A DNA stretch of 20,180 bases, taken from the NCBI RefSeq assembly GCF_000003605.2, contig NW_003129857.1, forward strand, positions 199,549-219,728, in the 5' to 3' direction. Each line of letters begins with the position of its first letter. Within the stretch, counting starts at the first letter, position 1. Below, piece after piece: positions 39-20,103 of this stretch. The position numbers and the translations under genes were made by a program. Below the pieces are notes generated by a model. The model worked only from the letters and a program-made list of their open reading frames with translations. It had not been told where the DNA came from and searched no databases. The DNA comes from Saccoglossus kowalevskii. Lineage: Eukaryota; Hemichordata; Enteropneusta; Harrimaniidae.

Positions 39-200
39 CTGCAACACATTGTCCTCCATATGGTGTTGATGGATGTGTTTGATATGATCCACTGATACAA
101 TACCATCCTGCATCACAATAATCAGTCGGCTGACTGTTACCTTGACCTTCACAGTACATACCAGGTGTACAATCCACACACCACGACTCATTGTGACCAC
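39..200 (-). CDS. Exon E28: cysteine-rich module (GHNESWC...CVAG)
   Basis: This is the most 3' exon visible, with 54 codons and phase 1 at both ends. The acceptor AG is at 201-202 and the donor GTAATA at 33-38. It contains SWCVDCTPGMYCEGQG, PTDYCDAGWYCISGS, and GGQCVAG. It aligns with the DDCMAGWYCSGGS part of E9 and with the E18/E19 border. The coding sequence continues in an exon beyond position 1. The longer open frame covering 15-200 in another register is a shadow. Confidence 0.9.
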
Positions 201-3200
201 CTACAATATTTATAATAACATCTCAAAATTATTGCCAAGGTGATGAATACATTTAGTCTTATTTGGGTTGATTAGATTTGATCTTGGTTGATCTGGTCTA
301 AAATGAGCCAGGTTGAAAATTGAACAGCACAAACTGATGCATTACAATTATGTTATAATTTCATATTCATAGTAACCCAGACATTCCATTATAATCATAT
401 AGATACATCCAAACCACAGATCTATGTTTCAGACCAATTTTTTCCAAAATTGTTCATGAAGTAATTTTCTAAACATCATAAGTAGGCAAGATTATTAAAA
501 TTGTATTGACATTTCTAAATTGAGTATATACAATATCACGGTTCCCCCATCTATTATGAAGTGTCCCACAAATATTGACCAGAAGCATTGTCTGTGTGTC
601 ATTCACGGTAAACTTTTAGTTCATGCATTTATAAGGAGATTATTAATTCTAAAAAAGGTAATGAAGTCTGCTGTGAAATCATCTGTATTTGTCCCACAGC
701 ATATACACATTGTGAAACCATGCCTGATAAATCTATATACCAAGATCATTCTATAAATATATTATATTGGAATTGAATCTCAACCAAATCTCAGACAGAC
801 ACAGTATAACCATGTCCCAACTGGAAAATTAACGGAAAATTTCCTCATTGCTTAACGCTGTATTATTGGATATATTTTGTTCCACACGTTCTAGGCTAGT
901 TGTGCAGAGCGTGTTGTGAAACTGTGTTGCATGTCAGGATTTCAGGTTCATATTTTACTACTGTATAATGTGTTAAAGTGTAAATAAGTTTAAAGCGAGG
1001 AGTCGTCACCTGCACAGGCGTCAGATGACCATAGCGTGTCATTGTTTACAAACAAGTGTCTACCCATGAGCCTTTGCGTTTTTAATGAGTGTTGTTATCA
1101 TCGCTTGGGACTTAATTTCCGCGCATGCGCAGGTGACGACCTTCACGATTAACAGATCATACAGCTTTAAAGCCAACAAAACAAGTTTGATTTGCAGATC
1201 AGATTTATACATACCAGTAAGATTGTTAAAGGTACCCTCAGGACATGGATATTGATGATCATACTGCGTTCCTTGAGGGCAGTAATACCCCGTTGGACAG
1301 ATAGTATCTGAATAGGTAGTAAAATTGCCTTCACAATAATAACCAGATGGACACGCTTTACACAGTTCTTGTCCAAGCTGGTCTTGATAAGTACCAGGTG
1401 TACATCCTACAGGCCATTCAGATCCACGAGGACAGTGATAACCAACTGGACAGACACCACCTATACCAGTATGAACACCTAAAATGATAATATGTCATGT
1501 GAAACACTTGCTCCAATTGTTATATTAAATCAAACACATTTTTCAATTAAGATTACATTTATTTCATAATTGGTTGATTACACAGTAATCAGTGATATGA
1601 TTAGAACCAAATGCTTAATCAAGGGCTTTTAATAACCTAATGGTGGCCATAATAGTAAAGACATAAAAATAGTATCTAATGCTAATACTTGCACTCGATT
1701 TCTCAAAAATGAGTTGACATACCATGGTAAATCATACATGTGTAATATTAAAGTACTTGGTTGTATTTTGTGAGCAGTTCAAAATTTTTAATTATTCATT
1801 TGCATACTCTTCATTTGCATACGCTTGGTTCGTTTGTTTCATTTCTCCACTGTGCATGGTTATTGTAGCCTATTTGCTTTGTACTGTTTACAACGCACGC
1901 TGACTGTGCCTAGTCATTTCATTTTATTTTCTTTTGCCGCCAATGTGCTTTATATACACATGGTTCTGTTCTTTGCCATTGAATAATTCATGTTATATTA
2001 GTAGCATTCCATACATCAGTAACATTACCATTCCTCTCAAGTTACATTCATGATACATGACAGTACCTGCAGGTCTCACTGGAGTTAGACTCAAGATACA
2101 CTAGTGGACATGTAAACTTACTTTTGAGAAGTAGGGTAGTACAAATATAACTGTTATATTTACCTTCAACATCACATGCTATAGCATCAATAGGTGTAGG
2201 ATTTGGTTTGTTAACTCTTGAAACACAGAAATATCCCGGATCACACTCATCTGTGGGAGATGTAAGGTTCACTCCCTCACAGTAGAAGCCACCAGGACAG
2301 TCAGTACAGTCAGTCTCCATTTCAAGTCCCAGTCTGGCACCATAGGTCCCAGATGGACAGGATGTCCAGTTACGTCCAGTGCCAGCAATGCAATAGAATC
2401 CTTGTGGACATAAACGATGGCCAGTGGAGGAGTTACCTAAAATAAAGAACAATTAGGTTGAAAATAGAATTACTTATTTTCCTACATGTATGTAGACCAA
2501 ACTACCAAAAATACTTTTGAATGAACAGCATTTTAACAAAGTTATGCTTTGAAAATTTCTGAAGAGTTCAGAGATTTTAAATTAATATTTTCAACCTTCA
2601 AATATGTCAATCAAAATTTGGAATCTCTGATTTGTGTCTATAATTAATACCATAATATTCTGATCTGTTGGATCTGAAGAAATATTCAAATATTTCAGAA
2701 ACCTCAGTATGACAAACTCATTGGAAATCAGAAAACATTTTATAGCAATTATTCATTACAGAGAATATATACATGTATCAAAGTAATTATAGTTAGTGGT
2801 ATCTGGATTAGTGGCATTTGGGAGACACACAATCAGTTTATTTTATTTGATGCTTACTTTCAGTTGACTTTGAAATGAACATCCCAGATTCAGAAAAATA
2901 TAATTCAGATACATGTATAAATGTTTGATTAATTGTACCTTCAATAACTTCCTCCGGTACACAATAGAATCCAGCTGGGCATTCCAAACACTCATCAGCC
3001 TGAGTGTAGTTTGTATAGGTGCCTGGTTCGCATGGAACTGGTAATGCACTACCCATGGGGCAATGTAACCCAATGCTACATGGGTAATCTGAAGGGTTGG
3101 GTACGATCTGTCCAGGTGGGCAGTAAAATCCTGGATCACAATCTCCAGATGGCGCAGAGAGACCTGAGAAAAAATATACAAATTTAAACTGATTTAACAT

Positions 3201-6200
3201 GGAAATATGGGTCATACATGAGTTATTATGCTTTCTTAGTAAGTTATAACAAGATCCCGTTCCAATCTCGCTCTCGCATAAGCGTTCCAACTCAGAAAAA
3301 TTCGAATGCGCATGCCCGAGGTAACTAGGATACTGGGATGTCCAGGTGGATCAAAATAGCTGCTCACGATATGACGGATTACGATAGTTATATTTTTTGT
3401 ACATTTTCGATGTATTACATTTTTTCACTATGAATGTGGTAATACATGTTATATTGTTTTATTACAAACCGCCTATGTCATGTCAGAAGGTCGTAGCACC
3501 AGTCTCGCTATCTACGAGATGGGACTTGAATGGGATCTTGACATGATGTCACCATACAGTACTATGCGCGTTGCAAACCCCAAGTAATGTACCTCTGATA
3601 TTATTCAGGTCATAAAGATGAAAACGTTTTTACAAAATGAAAGTTTTAAGTGTAGCAATAAATACATGAATTCTATGGCTAATATAAAATCAAATTTAAA
3701 CAGAATTTGTTCACATGCAACAAGATCACTAATAAAATTATGTCTGCTTGGACAAAATCTTTTTTTTTGCATATTCTTGTAATGAAATCTAGGTCAGATT
3801 ATAGTTTGACCTAAATTAAAGAATATATATATCATGTTTGTCATAGGTACACAACATCAGGATAGTGAAAATGAAAAAAAAATTACAAGATACAAAAGTA
3901 TAAAATGTCCAGGAAAATGTTAAAAAGTTGAAATTTTGAAATGGTTTCTATTGTGAAATTATTTATTCATATCTCAAAATCTTACGTGGTGACATAGGAA
4001 GAAAAATATATTAATATTGATATGAATCCTGATACTGGTTGAACATTTCACAAAATTTACATAATTTAAACAGTTCCCAGTATGACAATTGTTTTCCAGT
4101 ATGAGCAGAGCGTTGCCACTGCGGCCATCTTGGATTTGATACAAAATAGTTCATTTGTGGTTCATTCTGAAAACACAGCATACTTACCAGTTTCATTACA
4201 ATATGTGCCGTCATCACATGGATCACATTGTGATAACATCCACCTGTTGAGTGTATTGACATAGGTACCTCTAGGACAAGGTGTTGGCCAACCAGACCCC
4301 TCTGGACAATAATGACCGGTAGGACAAGACTCATTCCTTGGATCCCAAGAGCCTGCTACACAGTAGTAACTGAAATCAAATAAAGTTTTAAATCTCAATA
4401 CCTGAGATGCTTCAAACTGAAACTGAAACGAGTAATTTGGTATATCATTTCAGTTAATTCTAAACACATCTCCAAAACAAATTCAGTAGACTAGTGTAAA
4501 ACATGTCTTTTCAGCTAGCATGTTATTGTAGCTAATTTAGCTAATCTGTAGTACCCTGGAGGACAAGAAACAAAGTACTCTTTATTATAGACCAATAATT
4601 CATTAGTAACATGCTTGCTTGGCTCTCTATGATAGAATCCTGAAGTACAAGCAGAAAATCATTCTCTAATTCCAGACTTACCCTTGGTGGCAAAGTAGAG
4701 TGGTGTGTGTCATGTACAAATCGGGGCAATAGAACCCTGGAGTACAAGGAACACAGTCAGTCTCCGCTTCCAGACCAGTGATGTTACCAAATGTACCTTT
4801 GGGACAAGGGACTGGATCTGCTGTACCTTCTGGGCAATAGTAACCTTCAGGGCATATATTCGCATCATCACCTATAACAAACATAGTAAAACTGATGAAG
4901 TTTTGTATTTAGTAACAGTGTATGCATACATGTACCATCTTATTATTCAGCTTTGTGTTTTTCAAATTGTAAACTCCCCTAAGACTTTCATATAGAGATC
5001 AATGGTCGGGTATGTTATTTCAAATATTCTTGCTAACAGAATAAATTCGTGCTCTGAGACTTTTATATAGAGATCAATGGTTGATATGTTATTTCAAATA
5101 TCCGTAAACAACATAATCTAAATAATTTAGGAAAATATGTTTTATTTTGAAAAGTTGTCATTTTGCTAATTTTGATCTGTATTGTGATGGTAAGATAAAT
5201 CACAATTCTAGTTTTTAGTTTACTACTTTCTTTCATGAATTTTACTATTTAGAACTTAATGTTGGTAAGAATATTTGTTTGCCAAAATATTGGTAAGTAT
5301 TTTATATATTGATCAATATCTAATACTCATTGATTTTTAGGCTGTTCATGTATATATGTTAAGTGTCAGTGCACATTGTTGTGTTTGGAATTATGATCCA
5401 ATTTCTGTGCAATGTTCTGTAATTAAAATATGCATCTTAAACTATTATAATCATTGCAAAAATGGGAGAAAGCATTGACGTACCTTGATTTGGAGCTGAT
5501 ATATTAGCATATTGTTTACAATAATAGCCTGCATCACATGGGTCTATAGGAGTCACCATACCCGGTAATGGACAGTAATAACCACCTAGGCATGGAGTAC
5601 AATCCTCCATCTGACGTAAACCTGAAAAAAAGAAATATTAGGATAATGTACTTTAGTTATAAACATGTATACAGTGTGGGTAAAATGCAAAATTTGTTTG
5701 TGAATAGAAAATTTGATTTAGCATCTACTGGTATATGCATATGTAAGAATATCATCTACATAATATGTTATTGTAATGTTTGGTTTCTGTAATATATTCC
5801 TGGTATGACTGGTGTATGTGCATGTGTAACCCAGTGCAAGGAGTCATATGTACAATGATGTGAGAAGAAATAATTGTTTCATACAATGGCCATTAAATAT
5901 AGGAATACTTTATAACTATTAAACCACAGATTTTGTAGAGAACAACAAGCGTTAAAGCGGAGGGGTCACCACTTGTGCACGCATGGAAATTGAGCCCCAA
6001 GTGATACTAAAACTGCCAAGAATCATGGGTAGACACTTGTTTGTAAACAACGACACACTATGGATGTCTTCCATATGTGCAGGTGACGACTCCGTCGCTT
6101 TAACATTCAAAAGATTTTTAAGCAGATATAATGAGCTTGTGGTTAATAAAACAAAACAGTTACAAACATGATCACAGATGGTTTCTGTTGTAAACATCAG

Positions 6201-12200: not shown

Positions 12201-15200
12201 AAGTCCTTCACTTTCACAATAGAATCCTGCTAGACATGGTGTACAACTGCTAGAGTTATGTAAACCTTCTGTAGCTCCAAAGGTACCTGGTGGACAGGCA
12301 TATGGTTCTGCAGTGCCTTCTAAGCAGTAGGAACCTACCATTAAACCACAATTAAAAAATATATATCATATATTATGTCTGGTAGGTTTTGAATCCCAGG
12401 ACAGAATTGTAATCAATAAATTATGCAATAGTAAATTACTAGCGTGAACATGTACATGTAGCATGTATACCATATTAAGGATATAACAGTCACATCCATA
12501 CCTTGTGGACAGACATCAGCATCATAACCTAAGTTAGGTGTAGATGTATTAGCATACTGTCTACAATAGAATCCAGCAGCACACAGACCGGTAGGATAGG
12601 TGAGACCAATCTCTTCACAATAGTAACCACCTGATGAGAGACGACAACAGTGTAGATAAGTAACTGTACCCATAAACAAATTTGTATATTCATTACTGAA
12701 TGAATTGTTAAGTTTTCATTATGATATAGTAACAAATATTATAATATATTATATTGCCAGTATTTGCAGAAAATAATGAAATTAGTTGTATGAACTTACC
12801 AGAACAAGGTGTACAGTCCACAACCTGGTCATATCCAGTCTGGTTACCATAGGTACCACGTGGACATAAATGTTGATCAGCTCTCTGAGTTCCAGGTGGG
12901 CAATAGCTTCCAGCAGGGCATGTGATTGTATCATTGATTATAACAACACCCAATGAGTTATCACAGTAATACCCAGCTGGACAGGTCTTGCATGTCCATT
13001 GGCCAGCAAGGTCTTGATATGTACCACTAGGACACAGTAGCGGTTCAAATGAATGTTCAGGACAGTAGTGACCCTCAGGACATTCAATGGGGTCAGCAAT
13101 GTTTTGACCTCTAGGGCAATAGTAGCCTTGCGTACAGTTACCTATTAGACAAAATCACAATTAATAATTAGTCTAATTTACTTATGATTGAGATTTGTTG
13201 CCAGATATCACTTTTTCCTTTAAAATGATACCATACAGTACAGTCTGGTGTAAAATACAGTGTGAGGTGACAAGTCACTTTTCTGGAATGACAGATTTAG
13301 GTTGATCATTGAAATATTGAAATTTATGGGAAATATAGGAATAAATCCCAGCTACATATATACTAGGAATTAATAATGTTTGGTCTGTAACATTTTTTGA
13401 CTTATTCCAACATTTGTGTCTAAAATATTCAATTTTGTTGTTATCATCAGTAACTCTTGACAACAAATACTGTAAAGCATGTTGAAAAAGCGACATACTA
13501 TTTTTGCGAATTGCGGTTAAAGGACGTAATATCAAAATGTTGATTTAGCGAATCTTTCTAGTTTTTGTTGATTTCCTGTTTTCATAGTACTTGTCCTTCG
13601 CCTGCCAAAACAAATGCGTAGTTATCAGCTCTATAAAAACAAAGAAAAACTATCAAGTGTAATAGGGAAGCTCTCCAGATTATTATGTTTTTCTGTGTTG
13701 TTTACATATAGTATGTGTGGACAAAAGGACGTTGTTTGGCCGCCATTTTGAATTTATAATGAAGTCATTAGCAACATCTTAAATTAGTGAATAGTTCTCT
13801 CACTAAATTCGCGAAAAAGACATGTTTTACAGTGTATAATTGATATCCCAAAGGAAATTCCAAAACTGTGTTGTCTTTACAACTTCCTATTCTTACCTGA
13901 TGTCTGTGTCATGTTGAATTCTTCGCAGTATTCACCTAAACTACACAGAGTACAGTCAGTGATGTTAACATTACCAATGACAGGTGTATAAGTACCAGGG
14001 TCACATGGTATAGGATAGGGTGATCCCATTGGACAGTAAAAACCAGCAGGGCATATATCACCAATGATGCCATCACCAGGAGTAGGTGTATCCGATGTTA
14101 ATGTACAATAATAACCAGCAGAACAGTAATCTGTTGGTAGAGCTAGTCCTTCTGTTTGGCAGAATTCACCTCCTGGACAGGGTAAAGGAGCCGCAGAACC
14201 TGAAAGATAATAAACATTCCATGTTAGAAAGTGGTCGATATGTTATTCTGTGAAAACTTGTTATAAAGACAGCAAGGTTTCAATAAAATAGACAGTTTTC
14301 TTAAAAAAAACGCAGTCAAAGAGTCATAATATCCAGTACAGATGTTTTTAATAAATCAATTAACACTTTATGGCTTCATTGACAAATTCTACTTCACAGA
14401 AACCACTTTACATATCACAACTAAATGACAGGGTAGTATGGTAATTCTGAATCTGTAGTACACTTAACCTTTGATCTGGGCTGCTGAATTATCAGTGTTC
14501 AACCTCAAATAAACTAGCAGATCATAAATGTAGCACTAACTACTGCCCTATTAACAATTACCTTGCAACGTACAACAAACATTTTTACCCCAAATATCAG
14601 ATTAGTTGTATAAACAAATGGCCACCAGTCCGCCAAAATGACGTGCATCAGTAACCTACTATGACTGATGTCAATGCCAATTTTGAATGAAATCAGTCAA
14701 GGCAACATCAGCCAAATAAAAAATAAATCGATGTGCACATGTCTTTCATTATGACTTGTCTTTGTACCAGCTGTGAAGAAAATCCATCCAGGCATCTCTG
14801 AGAAATGATGACAGACACAAAGACAGAACCCAAAACATAAGTCCCTGTTTCAGACTACGTCCGACGAGGACTAATAATTTTTCTAATTAAAATTTTGAAT
14901 TCAAATAATGAAATAAAAATAATATTTCAACAGACCTTGAGGGCAGTAGTATCCAGGTTGACATATACCACCATGTGTGGTAGTATTGGGACTTGCGGAT
15001 CCACCAGAACAGTACCATCCAGCCATGCAATCATCAGTATAATTACTATTACCAAACCCTTCACAGTATTTACCAAGAGGACACGGTATACAATCATCTA
15101 TCGTTCTACCGTACAGTAGTGCATTGAATGTACCTGGTACACATGGGAATTCAGTTGAATACCGAGTGCCATTTGGACAGTAGTAACCTGAAAGAATAAA

Positions 15201-18200
15201 ACAAGAAATCAGTTATTTCTACCAGTATAAGAACACTTTGATTCAAGATTTTGAGAAGATGATTATACCAATACAAAACAAATAAAATGACACAACTACC
15301 ACTTTTATGATAAATATATTCACAATCCGTCAGAAAACTAATATCAACCATAATTTGATACATTGCTCAAGTTACTGTCAGATCGGTCAAAATTAAATCT
15401 GTCTGATTTTTTTCAAAATTGAGCATTATTAATCTTCACTGTTAAAGCGGGAGAGTCATCACCTGCACATACGCGGGAATTGAGTCCCAAGCGACGATAA
15501 CAACACACGCTAAAAATGGGTAGCCTTTCATTTGTGAAAGGTAACAACAGTTGACCTTGGCATTTGAAAGGTTAATACTGAACTGACAGTTTTTAAATTT
15601 GTATACAAACAGATTTTAAAATGGACTATTTTGTGGAAGGGTATAATGAGAGTGAAAGGGTTAACTGGACTATTTTGTGGAAGGATACAACAGTTGACTT
15701 TGGCATTCAAAAAGGTTGATGCTGAACCAACAGTTTTTAAATTTGTATAAAAACAGATTTTAAAAATGACTATTTTGAGAGAAGATACAATGAGAGTAAA
15801 AGGGTCAACTGGACTATTTTGTGGAAGATTACAACAGGAATATAAGGGTTAACAGGACTGTATTGCAGTAGGATTCACAATAAGTGGCACAATACATTAC
15901 CTGCTGGACAAGGGTAGGCATCAAACTCTGTAGAATTAGCAGTACAGTAGTAACCAGCTGGACAGAGTTTACACGTAGATCTTCCCAGTACATCGCTATA
16001 TGTTCCATCTTCACAGGGTATAGGGTGTGTGGTACCCAGGGGACAATAATGACCTAATGGACATATCCCACCAACACCTACAACAAAATAAGGAATTACA
16101 GACAGGTTTTTTTTACTTTTACATTTTGAAGAAGATAATAATTACAGTAAAATAAAAAAAAAAAAACATTGTCAATAATTATACTTCATATTAAATCACA
16201 ATTTGATCAAAGTAAATAGACATTATTCATGTCATTGTAACTACAAAGAAAAAGTTACAGCATATAGTTTTGATACTCCCTTTCTCGTAAACTATTTTAT
16301 CACCACAGTAACAAAAAATTTACCATTAAATACAAATCTTACCTCTGAAAAAACTCTGCTCTGGGCAAGCACAAGATGCATCAATTACTGTAATGTTATC
16401 AGCACTAGGCATAGGTCTGTCAACTCCAGATGTACAATAATAACCTGATAAGGGTGGATAAAACAAGGGTCAGTAACTCTACTGATATATATATATCATA
16501 CTGAATCAATGCAACAAATTAACCAGCCCTATTACACTGTACAAGGTGATGGCTATATTACATTGGACTTACCTTCAGAGCAATTACCAGTAGGTGCTGT
16601 GAGATGAACATTATCACAGTACATACCGCCCTCACAAGGTGAACACTGGTTTTGTTCACTCAACCCTTCTACATCATTGTATGTACCGGCTGGACAAGAC
16701 TGCCAATCAAGTCCAGTCCCTGTGAGAGAAAACATTTACAAAGAGAGTACTCCATTATTACTAGGATTTAATATTTTAAAATAATAATATACAATTTAAA
16801 ATTAACTTATCATAACCTGAGTGGTGTTATGTCAGAAACTTTAAAATAGCTAAATATCATAAAATAACAGAATCGTAATTTAGGTAAAATTCCAACATTT
16901 TATTGTAAGAATATAATTGTTTTATTTAGCTAATCTTGCAATAGTTGATCTAAATTAGTTCAAATGACAGTAATTGTCTGTGAGTCAATTGGATATTCAA
17001 ATGGAAGGTGTCCATTATTCTTCTTCTCTGCAATTGTGACATGTGCATGGTTGCTGTAATTTAAAGTATAGCTGTCAAATTCAACAAAGAGTAATGTCAA
17101 ACTTTAAATAACAATTACATAGAACATCATGGATGATACTGTAAAATTATTTATTTTAGCTGGAATTAATTTTTGCTGAAAAGACGTTTATGGAATTTAT
17201 TTTCACTGATTTTTGATGAGTTGAATGTAAAATATAGAAAAAAAGGTATATTCACTGGGTTTTATTTTCACTGAACCATTCCTTCAGCGAAAATTAATTC
17301 CAAGCGAAAATAAAGTATTTCACAATATTATGTACAGAGCAGAGTGTATTTATTGGAATCCAGAGTGGATATATCCCATAATACCTACCAATTGGACAGA
17401 AGTATCCTTTTGGGCATGGTTGATATGCTAATGAGGCATTGTGTATTTCTACTGGCAGGCAATAGTAACCTTCAGGGCAAATCACGCATTCTGCAGCTCC
17501 AGTAAAGTTTGTATAATATCCTGGCTCACATGACTACAACAAGAAAATTAAAACATAATCAATTTTTTTTACAATTTTCCTTTTTATAATGTATAGAAAA
17601 GTTTCTATTTTCTACACAAAGAAATTAAGCATAAAATAATTGCTTGAAAAGCCGTTTATATACACATGATTTCGTGATAAAGAATGCAATTAAATTAATA
17701 TCGATTTAATTTAATTAGTCAAACTAAAAGTTACTATACATGTCATCTAGTCTGACATTTTCAATGAATTGTTGTATTTCAAATTTTTACCATGAACCAC
17801 CCACTTCTTTACCAATTTAATTTCCGTTTTTCTCATTCTAAATATTATTTTTGAAAGGGAATGTATCTTACCTTATAAATCTCACTACCATTGGGACAAA
17901 CTAAACCAACTGGACAAATAAACTCAGCTGGGTTTGGCACACTGTTATTACCAGGGCAGTAATACCCACCCCAACATATCTCAGTCACTTCAGTCATACC
18001 ACTTGTAGGACAGTAGAAACCACCTGTTGATATTGAAGATGTTAGGGTTAATTACTGGTACTTAGATAAGTAATTGCATTACATAGTCCCTGTAAGTTAT
18101 CAAGTTCTAGAAATAGATCAAGTTTGAATATGAACAGATCTGGCATTTCAGAAATATGACTCTGGAACAGCATTCATTAAAACAAAATGGCTCCCAGTTG

Positions 18201-20103
18201 GCCATTTTGAAGTTGATCTTAAAAACAAAATGTGCATCAAGATCCCATTACATACAATACAATATATATACCAAGTTTAAATTAAATGTATCTATACATG
18301 ACCAAAATCCTGTTTCTGAATGGCAGAAATGCACAAAAACGGCCACAATCCAGGCATGTTTCAGATAAAGGTGGGATACACACAAACGCAGGCACACACA
18401 CATGGAAGTCAATCCATAAATCCTTGTTTTAACATTTCATCTGAACAGGGAATAATAATTAAAAATAATACATGCTAAAGTAATTTCATGTTTTCTGATG
18501 CAGTTGTTTACATTATTTGTTTTAAAAATTCATACTTGTATATAAACTTTCCTAATTATTTATATTTGTTTGGATCCCATCCTTAGATATACAGATTTGA
18601 ACTTCATATTTAAGATAAGATTTAGAGAATATCTCATGAAAAAAGGCATTAGAATTATCACTCTGGGCTGCAATTGCAGGATTTGTGAGTTTCAGTCCTG
18701 GATATGCCAAAATTTTGTATTTTACTCCTACTGCTTCTCTCTCTATTAACCCAGGAGTAAATGCAAACCTGGTATGGAATTGATTAGCATTTCACTCATG
18801 TGTGCATATATATCACAGCCAGGGTTGCATGCACCAGGGAGTTCAGTTGGAGAACAAGTTTGAATCAGTATATGAAAAATTGACCAGGGTAATAATGTGT
18901 CCTTCAGCATTATAAAATCAAAGATTTAGGCCCTATATAAATATGAGCATTAGTATTATTATTGAGAAAGTGAAAAACAAATGCAAGAAATTAAAGATGA
19001 ACCATCAGTAATGTGACATACCTGGGCATCCAGTACAATCTGTTTGTGCTTCAAGTCCTGGTGTATTGGACCATGTACCAGCAGGACAATCTATAGGTAT
19101 ATCTGTACCAATGGGACAATAATGACCTGATGTACACTGTTTAAACTGGGCAATATCAGCTCCACTATCACAATAATAACCTACAATAATGTATATAATA
19201 AATAAATATTTAATGTATTATATTTTCAAATTAGTAAATGTGAACCATCCACACAAGATATAATCGATTATTGTTAATAAAAATCAAAATCATTGAGACA
19301 GCCACTAGAGGGCGCAAAATCTGGTGAGAGGGCGCTGCAGAGCATACATCTCGTTACTAACCTGCATCACAAAGTGAGTCGGTATAGTTCATACCCCAGT
19401 GTTCACAATAATACCCAGGTGTGCAGTTGAAACAGTCATTCTCATTGGTCAATAGAATATCTGGATTGAAAGTACCAGGTGGGCATGGATGTGGTGCTGC
19501 TGATCCTTCCGTACAATAGTGACCAACTGGACATACATCATTGCCGTCACTGAAAGTTGGTGTTGACAAATTCGAACCACTGGTACAGAAATAACCTACA
19601 AAGAAAATTTAATGTATACAATATAAAAACTACACATTCAAGGCTTGTATAACCTTCAAATACAGCAAATCTGGTGTGTGAGTGCTAAGTACATGTAAAG
19701 GAACATTAATTCATAATTTTTCAAGAACTTGGTGCACTCTATGCCTGAGTGGCTCAAATCTGTTATTAAGAAGAAAGGGGGATACAGTGGATATTAAATT
19801 TTGGGATTCTATCAGCATGTGTTTGTTTTATTGATTGCTAATCAACGTGAACAAACTTTTGGAACATGTTGTACTTTTCCATTTCTCAGCAGGCAGTCAT
19901 AAAACCTGCAATCTCATGTTGATGTGTAACATTACCTTGTTGACAAAGTCCTGTTGGTTCTGATAACCCTTCTGTATCACAATACATTCCACCAGTACAA
20001 GGCTGACAGTCGTTTAATTCAACACGATGAGTTAGATTGTTAAACATACCACGTGGACAAGGAAACTCATTGTATCTCTTAGTCTTGGCTGGACAATAAT
20101 AAC
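39..20103 (-). CDS. Giant cysteine-rich repeat protein, internal part of a multi-exon gene (28 exons, partial)
   Basis: The exons join, in coding order, as 19936-20103, 19362-19595, 19022-19180, 17872-18023, 17389-17533, 16573-16719, 16343-16444, 15901-16077, 14936-15187, 13897-14199, 12800-13141, 12502-12630, 12188-12334, 11840-12037, 10643-10838, 9900-10105, 9346-9585, 8695-8898, 7467-7634, 6788-7070, 6403-6653, 5484-5621, 4682-4871, 4188-4369, 2939-3163, 2164-2436, 1215-1478 and 39-200. Every intron is GT-AG and every junction keeps the frame. The 1,879 residues carry about 25 modules of type CPxGxYCPxG/PCPxGTY/CxxCxxGYYC, roughly one Cys in ten residues. The module resembles Ephrin_rec_like / GCC2_GCC3, which is found in extracellular proteins. 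About 48 NxS/T sequons fit secretion. Start, stop, signal peptide and membrane anchor lie outside. Function is unknown; an extracellular matrix, mucus or cell-surface role is inferred. Confidence 0.9.
201..1214 (-). other. Intron E27-E28 with a TTAA-flanked MITE
   Basis: This intron holds the MITE copy at 990-1152. The rest, including a plus-strand open frame at 520-756, is AT-rich sequence with no domain, repeat or RNA gene that I can recognise. Confidence 0.8.
990..1152 (+). mobile_element. TTAA-flanked MITE, family A, copy 1
   Basis: This 163-base element is bounded by TTAA at 990-993 and 1149-1152. The left end AGCGAGGAGTCGTCACCTGC is inverted at the right as GCAGGTGACGAC, beyond which the right end is decayed. 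The core CATTGTTTACAAACAAGTG is shared with copies 2 and 3. It encodes no transposase. The right arm holds GCGCATGCGCA (1121-1131), an NRF1-like palindrome. TTAA target duplication would fit a piggyBac-type element, but TTAA may instead belong to the terminal repeat. Confidence 0.8.
1215..1478 (-). CDS. Exon E27: two fused cysteine-rich modules, type B (VHTGIGGVC...NNLTG)
   Basis: This exon has 88 codons and phase 1 at both ends, with acceptor AG at 1479-1480 and donor GTATGT at 1209-1214. It contains GVCPVGYHCPRG, VGCTPGTYQD, LCKACPSGYYC, ICPTGYYCPQGTQY, YPCPEGTFNNLTG. It starts the third 685-residue unit and aligns with E8+E9 start and E17+E18 start. It is a single exon where the other two units have an intron between the two modules. 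Confidence 0.93.
1479..2163 (-). other. Intron E26-E27 with a paired octamer motif
   Basis: This intron is AT-rich. Apart from the short direct repeat at 1796-1823, I see no gene, transposon end or structured RNA. Confidence 0.75.
1796..1823 (+). promoter_or_regulatory. Direct repeat with two POU octamer-like sites
   Basis: TTCATTTGCATAC occurs at 1796-1808 and again at 1811-1823. Each holds ATTTGCAT, the reverse complement of the canonical octamer ATGCAAAT bound by POU/Oct factors. Two sites 15 bases apart are unusual by chance, but AT-rich DNA makes such words fairly common. Regulatory function is only a possibility. Confidence 0.25.
2164..2436 (-). CDS. Exon E26: cysteine-rich modules (NSSTGHRLC...CDVEG)
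   Basis: This exon has 91 codons and phase 1 at both ends, with acceptor AG at 2437-2438 and donor GTAAAT at 2158-2163. It contains RLCPQGFYCIAGTGRNWTSC, PSGTYGARLG, DCTDCPGGFYC, PTDECDPGYFC, NKPNPTPIDAIACDVEG. It corresponds to E16 plus the first part of E17, here with no intron at CxPG|YFC. Sequons are NSS, NWT and NLT. Confidence 0.93.
2437..2938 (-). other. Intron E25-E26, no feature seen
   Basis: These 502 bases of AT-rich sequence show no recognisable repeat, transposon end or coding trace. Confidence 0.75.
2939..3163 (-). CDS. Exon E25: cysteine-rich module, type A (LSAPSGDC...VIEG)
   Basis: This exon has 75 codons and phase 1 at both ends, with acceptor AG at 3164-3165 and donor GTACAA at 2933-2938. 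It contains DCDPGFYCPPGQIVPNPSDY, CSIGLHCPMG, VPCEPGTYTNYTQ, ECLECPAGFYC and ends EEVIEG. It corresponds to E15 and E4+E5. The donor is weaker than most, but the junction to CPQGFYC in E26 matches the order in E16. Confidence 0.92.
3164..4187 (-). other. Intron E24-E25 with an inverted-repeat element
   Basis: This intron contains the candidate element at 3250-3540. Its remainder (3541-4187) is AT-rich, with a poly-T run near 3762 and no gene. The open frames at 4011-4334 are shadows of E24 and intron sequence. Confidence 0.7.
3250..3540 (+). mobile_element. Candidate inverted-repeat element (CAAGATCCCRTTC ends)
   Basis: CAAGATCCCGTTCCAA at 3250-3265 is inverted at 3526-3540 (TTGAATGGGATCTTG), with further weak pairing inside (CTCGCTCTCG against the CGAGATGGGAC side). 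The 291 bases between are less AT-rich than the surrounding intron and include ATGCGCATGC near 3305. No target duplication is clear and no second copy is in the window, so this may be a chance inverted repeat or an old MITE. Confidence 0.4.
4188..4369 (-). CDS. Exon E24: cysteine-rich module (YYCVAGS...CNETG)
   Basis: This exon has 182 bases. It starts in phase 2 with the base T completing Gly (acceptor AG at 4370-4371, TTTCAG|TTACTAC) and ends in phase 1 (donor GTAAGT at 4182-4187). It contains YYCVAGSWDPRNESCPTGHYC, TPCPRGTYVN, QCDPCDDGTYCNETG. The usual junction here is G|GT before YYC; this one is GG|T, a one-base shift. It corresponds to E14 and E3. Confidence 0.92.
4549..4596 (-). pseudogene. 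Second, older relic of the same exon segment
   Basis: ACCCTGGAG.ACAAG.AACA.AGT on the plus strand resembles the same part of E23, with larger deletions afterwards. On the minus strand it reads EYFVSCPPGYY before losing the pattern. It has no convincing acceptor, and its open frame ends soon after. It is either an old duplicate or a chance match; the position next to another relic favours duplication. Confidence 0.4.
4631..4677 (-). pseudogene. Decayed duplicate of part of exon E23
   Basis: On the plus strand, ATAGAATCCTGAAGTACAAG and TTCCAGAC match E23 ATAGAACCCTGGAGTACAAG and TTCCAGAC, about 70% over 47 columns with a one-base deletion. Translated in register with LEAETDCVPCTPGFYC it keeps Leu-Glu and Glu but loses both CxxC cysteines. 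It starts right after the E23 donor, so it is probably a tandem duplicate of the exon end that decayed in the intron. Confidence 0.6.
4682..4871 (-). CDS. Exon E23: cysteine-rich module (DDANICPEG...CHQG)
   Basis: This exon has 190 bases. It starts in phase 1 (acceptor AG at 4872-4873) and ends in phase 2 (donor GTAAGT at 4676-4681), so Gly is split GG|T. It contains NICPEGYYCPEG, VPCPKGTFGNITG, LEAETDCVPCTPGFYC, and LLCHQG. It corresponds to E13. Its second half (4685-4780) has a 96% identical copy at 9223-9318 and decayed copies directly downstream in its own intron, so this segment has duplicated repeatedly. Confidence 0.92.
4872..5483 (-). other. Intron E22-E23 with a 75-base duplication
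   Basis: This intron contains a two-copy tandem repeat at 4982-5103. The rest is AT-rich with no gene. The plus-strand open frame at 4705-4995 overlaps E23 and is not supported. Confidence 0.7.
4982..5103 (+). repeat. Two-copy tandem repeat, period 75
   Basis: AGACTTTCATATAGAGATCA at 4982 recurs as AGACTTTTATATAGAGATCA at 5057. Both copies continue AATGGT and then TATGTTATTTCAAATAT. It is a local duplication without coding content. Confidence 0.7.
5484..5621 (-). CDS. Exon E22: linker and half module (LRQMEDC...APNQG)
   Basis: This exon has 46 codons and phase 1 at both ends, with acceptor AG at 5622-5623 and donor GTACGT at 5478-5483. It contains EDCTPCLGGYYCPLPGM, DPCDAGYYCKQYANISAPNQ. 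It is the counterpart of E12. It begins before the CxxC, whereas E12 begins after it, so the upstream intron sits at a different point in the two units. The ORF on this exon is short and no methionine start is implied. Confidence 0.9.
5622..6402 (-). other. Intron E21-E22 with a TTAA-flanked MITE
   Basis: This intron holds MITE copy 2 at 5952-6103. The flanks show no gene; the open frames at 5983-6171 and 5952-6197 are the MITE itself. Confidence 0.8.
5952..6103 (-). mobile_element. TTAA-flanked MITE, family A, copy 2 (best ends)
   Basis: This 152-base copy has TTAA at 5952-5955 and 6100-6103 and clear terminal inverted repeats: TTAAAGCGGAGGGGTCACC on the left and GGTGACGACTCCGTCGCTTT on the right. 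Relative to copies 1 and 3 it is in the opposite orientation: its core reads CACTTGTTTGTAAACAACG. The short open frame starting MGRHLFVNND is a by-product of the repeat and is not a gene. Confidence 0.85.
6403..6653 (-). CDS. Exon E21: two fused cysteine-rich modules (CPLGHYC...NNLTG)
   Basis: This exon has 251 bases, starts in phase 2 (acceptor AG at 6654-6655) and ends in phase 1 (donor GTAAGA at 6397-6402). It has a type-I module CPLGHYCPLG/RCENGTYQD/TCKICPSGYFC followed by a type-II module LCPMGYYCPDGTRY/FPCPIGTFNNLTG. It is the counterpart of E11 and closely resembles E27, which has the same GTYQD and FNNLTG ends. Sequons are NGT, NST and NLT. Confidence 0.92.
6654..6787 (-). other. Short intron E20-E21
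   Basis: This is a 134-base phase-2 intron (GTATTA ... ACAG) with no other content. Confidence 0.8.
6788..7070 (-). CDS. Exon E20: cysteine-rich modules (FYCILGA...SPDYR)
   Basis: This exon has 283 bases. It starts in phase 1 (acceptor AG at 7071-7072) and ends in phase 2 (donor GTATTA at 6782-6787), splitting an Arg codon AG|G. It contains FYCILGAFDSTPTDNTTG, VCPVGHYCPEG, TPCPTGTYLD, DCIPCMEGYYC, PCDPGYYCPPGQNQS. It corresponds to the 3' two thirds of E10 plus the start of E11, with the addition of an intron just before CPLGHYC. Confidence 0.9.
7071..7466 (-). other. Intron E19-E20, no feature seen
   Basis: These 396 bases of AT-rich sequence hold no recognisable repeat. Open frames extending here from E20 are read-through of the acceptor. 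Confidence 0.75.
7467..7634 (-). CDS. Exon E19: cysteine-rich module (WYCGGNA...CTAG)
   Basis: This exon has 56 codons and phase 1 at both ends, with acceptor AG at 7635-7636 and donor GTAAGT at 7461-7466. It contains WYCGGNASTAQ, ECQPGEYCPQGSCKPVPC, DPGTYCQVAG, and TPTGNCTAG. It aligns with the end of E9 and start of E10. GTYCQVAG is a divergent GTY module in which Cys follows directly. Sequons are NAS and NCT. Confidence 0.9.
8266..8685 (+). mobile_element. TTAA-flanked MITE, family B (TTAAAGGCCCA ends)
   Basis: This 420-base element is bounded by TTAAAGGCCCA at 8266-8276 and its inverse TGGGCCTTTAA at 8675-8685. Its right end is preceded by a strong hairpin (8645-8677). Base composition is higher in GC than the intron around it. 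No transposase motif is present, so it is nonautonomous. It ends nine bases from the E18 splice donor. Confidence 0.7.
8645..8677 (+). repeat. Near-perfect hairpin at the element end
   Basis: CCAATTCACACTTGCCC is followed directly by GGGGCAAGTGAATTGG. The arms pair except for a two-base bulge, with almost no loop. It may be a subterminal repeat of the transposon or a later palindrome. In pre-mRNA it would fold about 17 bases beyond the E18 donor. Confidence 0.75.
8695..8898 (-). CDS. Exon E18: cysteine-rich module (SVIFEDKAC...CDPG)
   Basis: This exon has 68 codons and phase 1 at both ends, with acceptor AG at 8899-8900 and donor GTAAGA at 8689-8694. It contains KACPPGHYCPIG, NPCPAGTFYNVTR, DCLPCTCGYYC, and DMCDPG. 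CTCGYYC has an extra Cys where the family usually has Pro-Gly or Gly-Gly. The split codon at its start is G|GA. A transposon-like element begins nine bases past the donor. Confidence 0.92.
8899..9345 (-). other. Intron E17-E18 containing a copied half exon
   Basis: This intron holds the 96-base E23 copy at 9223-9318. The remaining part (8901-9222) is AT-rich with no other feature. Confidence 0.8.
9223..9318 (-). pseudogene. Recent copy of the second half of exon E23
   Basis: These 96 bases match 4685-4780 with four differences. All four are G in E23 and A here on the plus strand, and all fall on synonymous third positions (GAC/GAT, TGC/TGT, CCC/CCT, CAC/CAT). The frame is open. The donor GGTAAGT of E23 is replaced by GACTTT, and no acceptor is well placed; an AG inside the copy (CTGGAAG) would keep the phase but has no partner donor. 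I call it a non-spliced exon copy, with a cassette exon as the alternative. Confidence 0.8.
9346..9585 (-). CDS. Exon E17: cysteine-rich module, type B (YYCEYGVDRP...YYCPEG)
   Basis: This exon has 80 codons and phase 1 at both ends, with acceptor AG at 9586-9587 and donor GTAGGA at 9340-9345. It contains YYCEYGVDRPTPNG, SVPYGQTGMG, DVCPEGHYCPEG, PILCPAGSYANETG, LCIDCPAGYYCPEG. It equals E7+E8. Its donor is followed, 27 bases away, by a near-identical 96-base copy of half of E23. The frame that reads through the donor into that copy is not the module frame, so the donor is kept. Confidence 0.92.
9586..9899 (-). other. Intron E16-E17, no feature seen
   Basis: These 314 bases of AT-rich sequence show no repeat or RNA gene. 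Confidence 0.75.
9900..10105 (-). CDS. Exon E16: cysteine-rich module (YCILGDL...CQAG)
   Basis: This exon has 206 bases. It starts in phase 2 with one base completing Trp (acceptor AG at 10106-10107) and ends in phase 1 (donor GTAAAT at 9894-9899). It contains LCPEGYYCPEGTGTDWQPC, PRGTYNNETG, DCKPCNGGYYC, DKCQAG. It corresponds to E6 and the first part of E26. The open frame continues far into the upstream intron (to about 10311), which inflates a naive ORF; the splice junction and homology set the limit. Confidence 0.92.
10106..10642 (-). other. Intron E15-E16 with a small inverted-repeat element
   Basis: This phase-2 intron contains the element at 10331-10488. The open frame reaching 10311 is intronic read-through from E16. 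Confidence 0.75.
10331..10488 (+). mobile_element. MITE-like element with CTGTAAAATCT ends
   Basis: This element has inverted ends: CTGTAAAATCTCTATTAGAAGC at the left pairs with the inverse of GCTTTTAATACAGATTTTACAG at the right. Three internal copies of TATTAGAAGC/TAATAGAAGC lie near 10343, 10413 and 10453. It is 158 bases with no coding capacity. Confidence 0.6.
10643..10838 (-). CDS. Exon E15: cysteine-rich module, type A (LDYPSGPC...AGW)
   Basis: This exon has 196 bases, starts in phase 1 (acceptor AG at 10839-10840) and ends in phase 2 (donor GTATGT at 10637-10642), so the Trp codon is split TG|G. It contains PCEPGYYCPAGQN, YPCPIAHYCPLN, IPCPFGTFMN, QCDICIAGW. The junction gives CIAGW-YCILG. 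It corresponds to E25 and E4+E5. Three sequons (NSS, NSS, NHT) are present. Confidence 0.92.
10839..11839 (-). other. Intron E14-E15 with a TTAA-flanked MITE
   Basis: This 1,001-base intron holds MITE copy 3 at 11042-11174. The rest has a repeated TTTCATACTGTGCTT near 11545-11570 and otherwise nothing recognisable. Confidence 0.8.
11042..11174 (+). mobile_element. TTAA-flanked MITE, family A, copy 3 (short)
   Basis: This 133-base copy is bounded by TTAA at 11042-11045 and 11171-11174. The ends AGCGAGGGAGTCGTC and its inverse GACATCCCTCTCGCT are well matched. Compared with copy 1 it lacks about 30 bases before the right terminal repeat (the segment around TTATCATCGCTTGGGAC). Core CATTGTTTACAAACAAGTG is identical. 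Confidence 0.85.
11840..12037 (-). CDS. Exon E14: cysteine-rich module (PCSAGYYC...EEQG)
   Basis: This exon has 66 codons and phase 1 at both ends. The acceptor AG is at 12038-12039 and the donor GTCAGT at 11834-11839. It contains PCSAGYYCPEG, VCTTGDHCPQQ, TLCPEGTFNP, QCTPCTPGMYCEEQG. It matches E24 and E3. Its 5' end and acceptor are duplicated 68 bases upstream. I chose the proximal acceptor because the distal one (exon end 12105) reaches an in-frame TAA in the duplicated intron sequence. Confidence 0.9.
12001..12156 (+). repeat. 68-base tandem repeat covering the E14 splice acceptor
   Basis: Units are 12001-12068, 12069-12136 and a partial one at 12137-12156, almost identical (for example GACAGTAATAACC against CACAGTAATAACC). 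The first unit includes the first 37 bases of E14, its acceptor and 31 intron bases. The second keeps the same acceptor sequence in the intron. Divergence is very low, so the duplication is recent. Confidence 0.9.
12188..12334 (-). CDS. Exon E13: cysteine-rich module (SYCLEGT...LDVEG)
   Basis: This exon has 49 codons and phase 1 at both ends, with acceptor AG at 12335-12336 and donor GTAAAT at 12182-12187. It contains SYCLEGTAEPYACPPGTFG, SCTPCLAGFYC, and ends LLDVEG. It corresponds to E23 (YYCPEGTADPVPC). The usual Pro after YC is Leu. Its donor is followed within the intron by the 68-base repeat that copies the start of E14. Confidence 0.9.
12335..12501 (-). other. Short intron E12-E13
   Basis: This 167-base intron is AT-rich with no feature. 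Confidence 0.75.
12502..12630 (-). CDS. Exon E12: linker and half module (GYYCEEIG...CPQG)
   Basis: This exon has 43 codons and phase 1 at both ends, with acceptor AG at 12631-12632 and donor GTATGG at 12496-12501. It contains GYYCEEIGLTYPTGLCAAG, FYCRQYANTSTPN, and DVCPQG. RQYANTSTPN matches KQYANISAPN of E22 almost residue for residue, one of the clearest signs that the two units are paralogous. The intron before it splits CSG|GYYC. Confidence 0.92.
12631..12799 (-). other. Short intron E11-E12
   Basis: This 169-base intron is rich in AT dinucleotides near 12730-12755. No gene is present. Confidence 0.75.
12800..13141 (-). CDS. Exon E11: two fused cysteine-rich modules (largest exon)
   Basis: At 114 codons this is the longest exon. 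It is phase 1 at both ends, with acceptor AG at 13142-13143 and donor GTAAGT at 12794-12799. It reads NCTQGYYCPRGQN, then a type-I module ECPEGHYCPEHS/LLCPSGTYQD/TCKTCPAGYYC, then a type-II module TCPAGSYCPPGT/HLCPRGTYGNQTG/DCTPCSG. The same type I plus type II fusion without an intron is seen in E21 and E27. Sequons are NCT, NDT and NQT. Confidence 0.93.
13142..13896 (-). other. Intron E10-E11 with an inverted-repeat element
   Basis: This intron contains the candidate element at 13468-13836. The open frame at 13275-13535 overlaps it and has no recognisable domain, so it is not called. Confidence 0.7.
13468..13836 (+). mobile_element. MITE-like element with TACTGTAAA/GCATGT ends
   Basis: TACTGTAAAGCATGT at 13468-13482 is inverted at 13820-13836 as ACATGTTTTACAGTGTA. 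The similarity continues inward with GAAAAAGCG and TTTTGCGAATT on the left and AAATTCGCGAAAAAG on the right. It is 369 bases and encodes no transposase. It shares a CTGTAAA terminus with the elements at 10331 and 17139. Confidence 0.55.
13897..14199 (-). CDS. Exon E10: cysteine-rich modules (SAAPLPC...QTSG)
   Basis: This exon has 101 codons and phase 1 at both ends, with acceptor AG at 14200-14201 and donor GTAAGA at 13891-13896. It contains PLPCPGGEFC, LPTDYCSAGYYC, DTPTPGDG, DICPAGFYCPMG, IPCDPGTYTPVIG, and DCTLCSLGEYC. Sequons are NIT and NMT. It matches the 3' part of E19 plus E20. There the modules are divided by an intron at CTAG|FYC, and the corresponding CSAGYYC here is uninterrupted. 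Confidence 0.92.
14200..14935 (-). other. Intron E9-E10 with a possible dispersed repeat
   Basis: This intron has a stretch (14611-14860) that resembles 18179-18432. Otherwise it is AT-rich without a gene. Confidence 0.65.
14611..14860 (+). repeat. Possible dispersed repeat, copy 1
   Basis: It begins AACAAATGGCCACCAGTCCG and ends ACATAAGTCCCTGTTTCAG. The start and end match those of 18179-18432 (AACAAAATGGCTCCCAGTTGG and CCATAAATCCTTGTTTTAA), while the middles are weakly alike. It may be an old transposon family; I am not certain. Confidence 0.35.
14936..15187 (-). CDS. Exon E9: cysteine-rich module (YYCPNGT...YYCPQG)
   Basis: This exon has 84 codons and phase 1 at both ends, with acceptor AG at 15188-15189. 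The donor is GTCTGT at 14930-14935, weaker than the others, so this boundary rests partly on homology. It contains YYCPNGTRYSTEFPC, GTFNALLYG, DDCIPCPLGKYC, DDCMAGWYCSGGSASPN and ICQPGYYCPQG. It aligns with E18 plus the first part of E19, and with the end of E27 plus E28 (WYCISGS). The intron pattern differs among the three. Confidence 0.88.
15442..15523 (-). mobile_element. TTAA-flanked MITE, family A, copy 4 (truncated)
   Basis: The left end TTAAAGCGGGAGAGTCATCACC is intact. The body CCCAAGCGACGATAACAACAC matches the reverse complement of copy 1. Similarity stops after ATGGGTAG (15516-15523), so the core and the opposite terminal repeat are missing. The tandem array begins just beyond. Confidence 0.75.
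15544..15860 (+). repeat. Tandem array, period about 143, two units plus a part
   Basis: Units start at 15544, 15687 and 15831 with ACAACAGTTGAC or ACAACAGG. Each full unit carries CAGTTTTTAAATTTGTATA, AAACAGATTTTAAAA and GGACTATTTTGTGGAAG. The short open frame at 15528-15710 is only the repeat. It ends about 40 bases from the E8 donor. Confidence 0.8.
15901..16077 (-). CDS. Exon E8: cysteine-rich module, type B start (VGGICPLGHYC)
   Basis: This exon has 59 codons and phase 1 at both ends, with acceptor AG at 16078-16079 and donor GTAATG at 15895-15900. It contains ICPLGHYCPLG, IPCEDGTYSDVLG, TCKLCPAGYYC and YPCPAG. Spacing between GTY and the CxxC is short, the mark of a type-I module. I take it as the start of a complete 685-residue unit; its counterparts are E17 and E27. 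The donor lies 40 bases from a 143-base tandem array. Confidence 0.92.
16078..16342 (-). other. Intron E7-E8, no feature seen
   Basis: This 265-base intron has poly-A and poly-T runs and nothing else. Confidence 0.75.
16343..16444 (-). CDS. Exon E7: short linker exon (YYCTSGVDRPMP...FFRG)
   Basis: At 34 codons this is the shortest exon found. It is phase 1 at both ends, with acceptor AG at 16445-16446 and donor GTAAGA at 16337-16342. It begins YYCTSGVDRPMPSADNITV, matching YYCEYGVDRPTPNGDNNIT of E17. It then ends SCACPEQSFFRG, which departs from the family pattern. E7+E8 together equal E17, so an intron separates here what E17 holds in one exon. One NIT sequon is present. Confidence 0.85.
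16573..16719 (-). CDS. Exon E6: cysteine-rich module (TGLDWQSC...CSEG)
   Basis: This exon has 49 codons and phase 1 at both ends, with acceptor AG at 16720-16721 and donor GTAAGT at 16567-16572. It contains TGLDWQSCPAGTYND, GLSEQNQCSPCEGGMYC, and APTGNCSEG. It corresponds to E16 and to the first part of E26. The split codon at the 5' end is G|GG, still glycine. An open frame runs past the donor into the intron for a few codons, but the strong GTAAGT and homology favour this end. Confidence 0.92.
16720..17388 (-). other. Intron E5-E6 with an inverted-repeat element
   Basis: This intron contains the element at 17139-17325. The part from 16720 to 17138 shows no gene or repeat. Confidence 0.75.
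17139..17325 (+). mobile_element. MITE-like element with 40-base inverted ends (CTGTAAAATTATTTATTTTA)
   Basis: The first 40 or so bases, TGTAAAATTATTTATTTTAG followed by CTGGAATTAATTTTTGCTGAA, are inverted at 17283-17324 (TTCAGCGAAAATTAATTCC, then AAGCGAAAATAAAGTATTTC). Differences are few. The element is about 185 bases with no coding capacity. No clear target duplication is seen. Confidence 0.7.
17389..17533 (-). CDS. Exon E5: cysteine-rich module (SCEPGYY...CPIG)
   Basis: This exon has 145 bases and starts on a whole codon (phase 0, acceptor AG at 17534-17535) and ends in phase 1 (donor GTAGGT at 17383-17388). It reads SCEPGYYTNFTG, ECVICPEGYYC, and ends QPCPKGYFCPIG. The GTY position is GYY here. 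NFT and NAS sequons are present. Together with E4 it equals E15 and E25. The next exon continues CPIG|TGLDWQSC, which matches CPEGTGTDWQPC inside E16. Confidence 0.88.
17534..17871 (-). other. Intron E4-E5 (phase 0), no feature seen
   Basis: This 338-base AT-rich intron is the only one found that falls between codons. No repeat is recognised. Confidence 0.75.
17872..18023 (-). CDS. Exon E4: cysteine-rich module (GFYCPTS...SEIYK)
   Basis: This exon has 152 bases. It starts in phase 1 (acceptor AG at 18024-18025) and ends in phase 0 (donor GTAAGA at 17866-17871). It contains GFYCPTSG, EICWGGYYCPGNN, FICPVGLVCPNGSEIYK. The following intron is the only phase-0 intron found, and it cuts a type-A module that is uninterrupted in E15 and E25. 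'SVPNPAEFICPVGLVCP' here aligns with 'IVPNPSDYPCSIGLHCP' in E25, which supports the reading frame. Confidence 0.88.
18024..19021 (-). other. Intron E3-E4 with a possible dispersed repeat
   Basis: This 998-base intron includes the repeat candidate at 18179-18432. The plus-strand open frame at 18156-18368 lies in it and lacks any recognisable domain. The rest is AT-rich with no gene. Confidence 0.7.
18179..18432 (+). repeat. Possible dispersed repeat, copy 2
   Basis: Its ends match those of 14611-14860. It includes a short CA-rich stretch (GGCACACACACATGG, near 18391). Similarity in the middle is weak. Confidence 0.35.
19022..19180 (-). CDS. Exon E3: cysteine-rich module (YYCDSGA...GCPG)
   Basis: This exon has 53 codons and phase 1 at both ends, with acceptor AG at 19181-19182 and donor GTATGT at 19016-19021. 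It contains QCTSGHYCPIG, DCPAGTWSN, and GLEAQTDCTGCPG. It corresponds to E14 and E24 in the 685-residue repeat. The usual GTY is GTW here. No N-glycosylation sequon is present, which is unusual for this protein (SNTP is blocked by Pro). Confidence 0.9.
19181..19361 (-). other. Short intron E2-E3 with a CTCF-like word
   Basis: This 181-base intron carries the motif at 19302-19315 and an AATCGATT palindrome at 19263-19270. Confidence 0.7.
19302..19315 (+). promoter_or_regulatory. CTCF-like core motif
   Basis: CCACTAGAGGGCGC fits the known CTCF core (CCANNAGRNGGCRS). A second GAGAGGGCGCTGCAG lies at 19326-19340. In an AT-rich intron this GC-rich pair stands out. Binding cannot be judged from sequence alone, and such words also occur inside invertebrate repeats. 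Confidence 0.35.
19362..19595 (-). CDS. Exon E2: cysteine-rich module (YFCTSGS...CDAG)
   Basis: This exon has 78 codons and phase 1 at both ends, with acceptor AG at 19596-19597 and donor GTTAGT at 19356-19361. It contains DVCPVGHYCTEG, PHPCPPGTFNP, DCFNCTPGYYC and SLCDAG. It has sequons at NLS, NCT and NYT. It covers the same modules as E12+E13 and E22+E23, but as one exon, so an intron was lost here or gained in the other units. The alignment is easy to see: 'STPTFSDGNDVCPVG' here against 'STPNLGYDADVCPQG' in E12. Confidence 0.92.
19596..19935 (-). other. Intron E1-E2, no feature seen
   Basis: This 340-base intron has no repeat or gene I can recognise. Confidence 0.75.
19936..20103 (-). 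CDS. Exon E1: cysteine-rich module (YYCPAKT...CQQG)
   Basis: This is the most 5' exon visible, with 56 codons and phase-1 introns on both sides. The acceptor AG is at 20104-20105 and the donor GT at 19934-19935 (GTAATG). It begins YYCPAKTKRYNEFPC, continues GMFNNLTH and DCQPCTGGMYC, and ends EPTGLCQQG. It carries one NLT sequon. It matches the second half of E11 plus the start of E12, and the second half of E21 plus the start of E22, but without the intron that interrupts those two. The upstream exon lies beyond the window. Confidence 0.9.

Follow-up and report, generated by a model that had tools for sequence, protein, structure and literature searches.

Did the gene of small cysteine-rich modules in this part of the Saccoglossus kowalevskii genome reach its present length by the addition of single modules, or by the copying of larger blocks? 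The window, that is the whole stretch of DNA presented here, comprises 20,180 bases of contig C2159 (368 kb, in a genome of 572 Mb). An initial annotation had proposed a repeat of approximately 685 residues inside the encoded protein and growth of the gene by duplication of a block of about 2 kb of coding sequence. In the present study, a splice model was built by dynamic programming and trained on the module motifs; it imposes GT-AG introns and rewards AG before the donor. In this model the gene lies on the minus strand, with 28 exons running from 20103 down to 39, 1,878 codons and no stop. It continues downstream of the window, in C2159 182280-198007, which was also analysed. The exon numbers of the initial annotation (E1 to E28) agree with this independently made model wherever they can be traced.

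The 685-residue super-repeat is real and ancient. The spliced protein is made of units of approximately 685 residues with ten modules each, and the modules, of about 50-97 residues with 6-8 cysteines, start with a CPxGxYC-like motif. When units are cut at a TGxDWQ-like marker word, the analysed part of the gene contains six copies, three complete and three partial, all on the minus strand. Unit U0 (16718..20103, E1-E5) is partial, from position 7, the start of which is cut, to position 10 and the first residues of position 1. U1 (10045..16717, E6-E15 and the start of E16, marker TGLDWQSC at 16717) and U2 (2381..10044, the rest of E16, E17-E25 and the start of E26, marker TGTDWQPC at 10044) are complete with positions 1-10, and have 684 and 694 residues, respectively. 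The first part of U3 (39..2380, the rest of E26, E27 and E28, marker TGRNWTSC at 2380) holds positions 1-3 and the start of position 4. The remainder of U3, U4 and part of U5 are in the downstream piece; the 1,541 bases between this piece and the window lie outside the analysed sequence, and U3 is therefore in two pieces. The complete unit downstream has 649 residues, having been shortened by losses at apparent frameshifts. Units align end to end, with pairwise identities of 42-54 %.

Comparison of the window protein with itself, in high-scoring windows of 30 residues, gives a top lag of 1381 (219 out of 486), followed by 688 (209 out of 1179), with module-length lags being weaker (lag 72, 77 out of 1795; lag 78, 76 out of 1789). 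In the downstream part the strongest lag is 662. The check suggested in the initial annotation, that lags of about 685 residues should be stronger than those at module length and that the repeat should extend beyond the window, therefore came out in its favour. Module length is also tied to position: position 2 has 51 residues (five out of five), position 8 has 72 (five out of five), position 4 has 58 (three out of three), and position 7 has 80 in four out of five, the fifth being cut by the start of the model. The short modules, with six cysteines, are at positions 2, 6, and 10. An A-A-B order of lead-in sequences had been described for this protein, with A at E4, E10/11, E15, E20/21, and E25 and B at E7, E17, and E26/27. 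These lead-ins are located as claimed and are the ends of the modules preceding the short ones (that of position 1 for B, those of positions 5 and 9 for A); the order is real and reflects short modules spaced 4+4+2. The reported periods between B motifs, 683 residues (E8 to E17) and 689 residues (E17 to E27), are reproduced from summed module lengths, and the paired marker words fall at equal positions of the unit, RQYANTSTPN/KQYANISAPN at position 7, TGLDWQSC/TGTDWQPC at position 1, and VPNPAEF/VPNPSDY at position 9.

Statistics and trees were based on 45 modules of the window gene, module U4_m03 being excluded. At 57 variable columns, modules of the same position in different units have an identity of 0.310 (81 pairs), compared with 0.178 for all other pairs (909 pairs) and 0.170 for neighbours in the chain, and none of 5,000 shuffles of position within units reached the observed same-position value. 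Peaks are seen at lags of 10, 20, 30, and 40 modules. In the maximum-likelihood tree, the position label requires 14 changes (minimum 9; shuffled mean 33.9; as low in 0 out of 200) and the unit label 34; position 1 forms one well-supported group. Clustering of modules by neighbourhood, named in the initial annotation as the result that would speak against it, is thus not what these trees show overall.

A genome search with unit U2 gave 65 matches among those listed, all on C2159 and a second contig, C3325; the search scores the best candidates only, and further relatives may exist. Among the matches listed, those on C3325 span 489-570 kb. The part of this second gene that was analysed (C3325 559900-570562) contains three further units in which the ten-position order is kept, the last being cut at its end. 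In two of these units a further module stands between positions 1 and 2, and one of the two is a module short between positions 7 and 10; these are the exceptions to a module order that is otherwise fixed over whole blocks in the end-to-end alignments. Twenty-nine modules of the second gene were used, the first module of unit V1 and a single V0 module between positions 7 and 10 being excluded. Between the genes, same-position identity is 0.283 (120 pairs) and that of other pairs is 0.182 (1,185 pairs). In a tree of all 74 modules, the position label requires 25 changes (shuffled 55.5), the unit label 57 (shuffled 52.8; as low in 198 out of 200), and the gene label, which is slightly clustered, 19 (shuffled 23.0; as low in 24 out of 500). 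Since the second gene, on another contig, has the same ten-module unit, the unit predates the separation of these genes. A tree of units, in which V1 was masked before position 2 and U5 was excluded, does not settle in which order the later multiplications took place. Modules at equal positions are therefore more alike than modules within a block, except at positions 8 and 9 and in unit V1.

The copies are old. Where the amino acids are identical, the fourfold sites of different units of the window gene match in 0.379 of 1,361 comparisons, which is the value expected without memory (0.379), and the highest value for any pair of units is 0.476 over 42 sites (U2-U5; expected 0.382). Cys codons agree at 0.688, compared with 0.691 expected. 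Because the fourfold sites are saturated, the duplications are old and have not been homogenised, and the survival of position-specific lengths and words suggests selection on each position.

With regard to the fold, one exon was modelled, and its predicted structure matches the cysteine-rich rod (MST1/growth-factor-receptor type) of the Chlamydomonas mastigoneme protein MST1. This rod has about 678 residues, a length of 26 nm and 26 disulfides, according to excerpts of the source (PMC11015965). If the likeness holds along the chain, each unit would be approximately 26 nm long and the analysed part of the chain approximately 120 nm, and a partner-binding surface would repeat every 26 nm or so. 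Among domain families, the 23.1-bit curated cut-off of PF07699 (Ephrin_rec_like) is exceeded by two out of six exon readings (24.5 and 27.2), another scoring 19.7 and three being unlisted, and both longer spliced chains score 22.9. For PF00020 (TNFR_c6), 10 out of 16 modules have E-values of 1 or less, the best being 0.0079.

Taken together, these results favour the view that the window covers part of an animal gene whose product is a giant extracellular rod, a function that we infer, in which the unit arose by stepwise duplication and was then multiplied in tandem; we give this a probability of roughly 0.7. A module would have been duplicated first, giving a four-module block of three long modules and one short one, and about two and a half such blocks would have made the unit. 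Unequal exchange would then have multiplied the unit in tandem, at about the time when the two genes separated or earlier. As the unit would be one structural period of the rod, each position would since have been kept close to a length and a sequence of its own. Introns would have come and gone after the duplications, mostly in Gly codons, so that exon boundaries would no longer reflect the units. The earlier proposal of growth by copying blocks of about 2 kb is thus supported by trees and shuffles, with the qualifications that the duplications are ancient, that introns were not carried with the block, and that there may be an older tier of four modules.

Several points weigh against this reading. 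The exon joins are predictions of a splice model computed from the sequence alone, and the sequence analysed is an internal part of the gene, both ends of which lie outside. The best partner of a module shares its position in 28 out of 45 cases, so individual module assignments are noisy. Positions 8 and 9 are not grouped by position in either tree (four and five changes in the 45-module tree), and V1 clusters by unit (six changes, shuffled 9.5, as low in 0 out of 500). The best Foldseek E-value for the single exon modelled is 0.003, with no match at 0.001 or below, and the 26 nm length and repeated binding surface are scaled from MST1 alone. The apparent frameshifts in U4 and in the second gene are assembly errors or (early) decay. 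Those seen by eye are single frameshifts near C2159 188455 and 184690, in U4, and near C3325 566190, in the second gene.

The alternatives differ in how well they fare. We rate it as slightly less likely than not that the real growth unit is a block of about 281 residues with four modules, three of them long and one short, the ten-module unit then being two blocks and a reduced third. The placing of the short modules fits this, and in the window protein no lag under 400 residues does better than 281, with secondary similarity at module lags 4 and 6 (0.190 and 0.215). The additional module that follows position 1 in two of the three second-gene units could likewise belong to a less reduced third block, although the unit that is one module short between positions 7 and 10 does not fit. 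The similarity of modules in the same slot of four was reached by 14 out of 20,000 shuffles when all modules were included, but by 993 out of 20,000 for the long modules only. Downstream, lags 72 (131 out of 1210) and 208 (109 out of 1074) exceed lag 280 (69 out of 1002), and the ten-position signal is much stronger than the four-position signal. If present, the four-module block may be an older tier below the ten-module unit, which would be compatible with stepwise duplication followed by tandem multiplication and would also explain the A-A-B order.

The introns are arranged differently from the blocks. The set analysed has 43 introns, two U4 junctions beside an apparent frameshift having been dropped and a third, beside the other frameshift, kept; the presence of GT-AG in all 43 is no evidence, as it is imposed by the splice model. 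A Gly codon is split in phase 1 by 36 out of 43 modelled introns and interrupted in any phase by 38, and 20 out of 28 exons in the window are phase 1-1. Phase-1 introns are found at 25 out of 65 AGGT Gly sites, four out of 62 other AGG sites, and seven out of 265 other Gly codons; the AGGT excess is partly built in, since the model favours AG before donors. Open frames would fix the intron positions to a precision of a few codons. The number of positions that units have in common does not differ from that under random choice, whether among AGG Gly codons, in which A precedes Gly (five, 4.85 expected; reached by 2,642 out of 5,000 shuffles), among all Gly codons (eight, 5.30 expected; 761 out of 5,000), or among all residues with one column of slack (10, 7.83 expected; 1,260 out of 5,000). 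The present introns did not travel with the block, which is the least expected part of the result; an exon pattern copied with the block, as listed for complement receptor 1 (CR1) and not defining for all super-repeat proteins, is absent here. The second gene reads through the corresponding unit in a single frame of 1,452 codons, which contains 55 AGG Gly sites and is free of introns; the exons before this frame are shorter, at 91 to 1,161 nucleotides.

Intron history may have been one of gain, loss, or both. The chances are a little below one in two that introns were inherited with the block and mostly lost independently in each unit, the second gene having lost a stretch, for example by recombination with its own complementary DNA (cDNA). 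Intron loss through cDNA is an established model, the intron-free stretch lies 3′ of intron-bearing exons, and 10 introns in 34 modules fall at module column 61 (G before YYC), which is what an ancestral boundary between modules could look like. However, inherited introns would not be expected to be shared at the random rate observed, and by loss alone the ancestral unit would have needed approximately 36-39 introns per 700 columns, as estimated from three full-length pairs (the estimates from partial pairs are spread over 18 to 55 per 430 columns). Exons of the window gene also do not lengthen towards the 3′ end (Spearman 0.11, p 0.47, 44 exons).

Rather less probable, in our judgement, is that the units began intron-poor and gained about 10 introns each, preferring Gly codons at AG|GT, while most of the analysed array of the second gene stayed intron-free. 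If this is true, the super-repeat is a natural replicate experiment on intron gain, and the exons are late and unrelated to the founding modules, although the 20 phase 1-1 exons resemble classic shuffling exons. Two tandem duplications cross splice junctions, one of 68 nucleotides over an acceptor (12000-12135) and a 38-nucleotide minisatellite over a donor downstream. Published models of intron gain by tandem duplication involve such junction-crossing events, according to excerpts of the source (PMC4974935), and no intron of the window gene was traced to a tandem duplication. The 68-nucleotide duplication (12000..12135, minus strand) is 97 % identical and comprises the acceptor junction and the start of exon 14; its outer copy would hit a stop. 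The minisatellite has 9.6 copies in C2159 187173-187535 (L009 7625-7987), starts within an exon end, extends into the intron and repeats the donor region.

The remaining alternatives are very improbable. Addition of modules singly, with the 685-residue period a chance or selected pattern, is suggested by the scaffold that all modules share, the mixing of positions 8 and 9 with others and the clustering of V1, but is contradicted by the shuffles of position, by module trees that cluster by position overall, by a unit label unclustered over all nine units, and by lengths fixed by position and the same order in the second gene. That the copies are recent, or that gene conversion has kept them similar as it does in the higher-order repeats of satellites, is suggested by the short duplications of 68, 99, and 38 nucleotides in the gene, but the saturated fourfold sites and the Cys codons, agreeing at the expected rate, argue against this.

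The modelled exons, all on the minus strand, are E1 to E5 at 19936-20103, 19362-19595, 19022-19180, 17872-18023, and 17389-17533; E6 to E10 at 16573-16719, 16343-16444, 15901-16077, 14936-15187, and 13897-14199; E11 to E15 at 12800-13141, 12502-12630, 12188-12334, 11840-12037, and 10643-10838; E16 to E20 at 9900-10105, 9346-9585, 8695-8898, 7467-7634, and 6788-7070; E21 to E25 at 6403-6653, 5484-5621, 4682-4871, 4188-4369, and 2939-3163; and E26 to E28 at 2164-2436, 1215-1478, and 39-200, the 3′ end of E28 at 39 being uncertain. A 99-nucleotide copy (9223..9321, minus strand; 95 % identical) of part of exon 23 (4685-4783) is not included in the gene model; it has the orientation of the exon, falls within the intron that separates exons 17 and 18 and is 4.5 kb further upstream in the gene. 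Several introns contain a dispersed element of at least about 100 nucleotides, in both orientations (window 999-1092, 6008-6103, and 11042-11145, and near C2159 188200), which apparently occurs elsewhere in the genome too, as similar words are seen in frames of loci L021 and L028. Minisatellites occupy much of two introns, at L010 1172-2153 (periods of 18-151 nucleotides) and window 15531-15837 (144 nucleotides).

With these results, the known giants among super-repeat proteins gain a member that is disulfide-rich and of extracellular type, and its saturated synonymous sites and the sharing of the unit by two genes speak against recent homogenisation. Phase 1-1 exons in a modular protein are not in themselves proof of exon shuffling; here blocks are conserved and introns are not. 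With its units serving as internal replicates, this one gene offers a way of counting both gains and losses of introns. An axial period of approximately 26 nm is a directly testable prediction.

Among the closest known systems are Ephrin_rec_like/GCC2_GCC3 (PF07699) modules, TNFR_c6 modules, and ELAPOR1. The motif CPxG[HYF][YFH]CxxG was absent from the frames examined (up to four per locus, none for two loci) at 30 loci out of 40 listed PF07699 matches elsewhere in the genome. By eye, loci L021-L050 seem to have approximately one canonical Ephrin_rec_like domain per exon, several near EGF or sushi domains. The canonical Ephrin_rec_like genes elsewhere in the genome seem to be a different gene class. 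Rods of the MST1 type have a C-terminal proline helix and assemble into filaments. MST1 itself has one cysteine-rich domain after nine Ig-like domains, compared with six copies in the part analysed here, and no super-repeat is mentioned for it in excerpts of the source (PMC11015965).

Nebulin is a further case of a super-repeat protein. In the titin A-band, as described in excerpts of PMC10665226, a domain resembles its counterpart in the neighbouring super-repeat more closely than it does the other domains of its own super-repeat; recursive duplication of super-repeats, with an effect that is uneven along the chain, is common to both proteins, whereas titin has Ig and FnIII domains and belongs to muscle, and the present protein has units of ten cysteine-rich modules, which are of the extracellular type, and its synonymous sites are saturated. 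CR1, in the excerpts of PMC6883348, is likewise extracellular and consists of small modules that were multiplied blockwise, in four blocks of seven modules each, but its blocks are consecutive sets of exons, with some sites nearly identical, whereas here the units are old and their introns differ. The gene grew in old, large steps, and its product is a new member of the known kind of super-repeat protein to which titin and CR1 belong, distinguished from both by the class of its modules, by its age, and by introns that are disconnected from the blocks.
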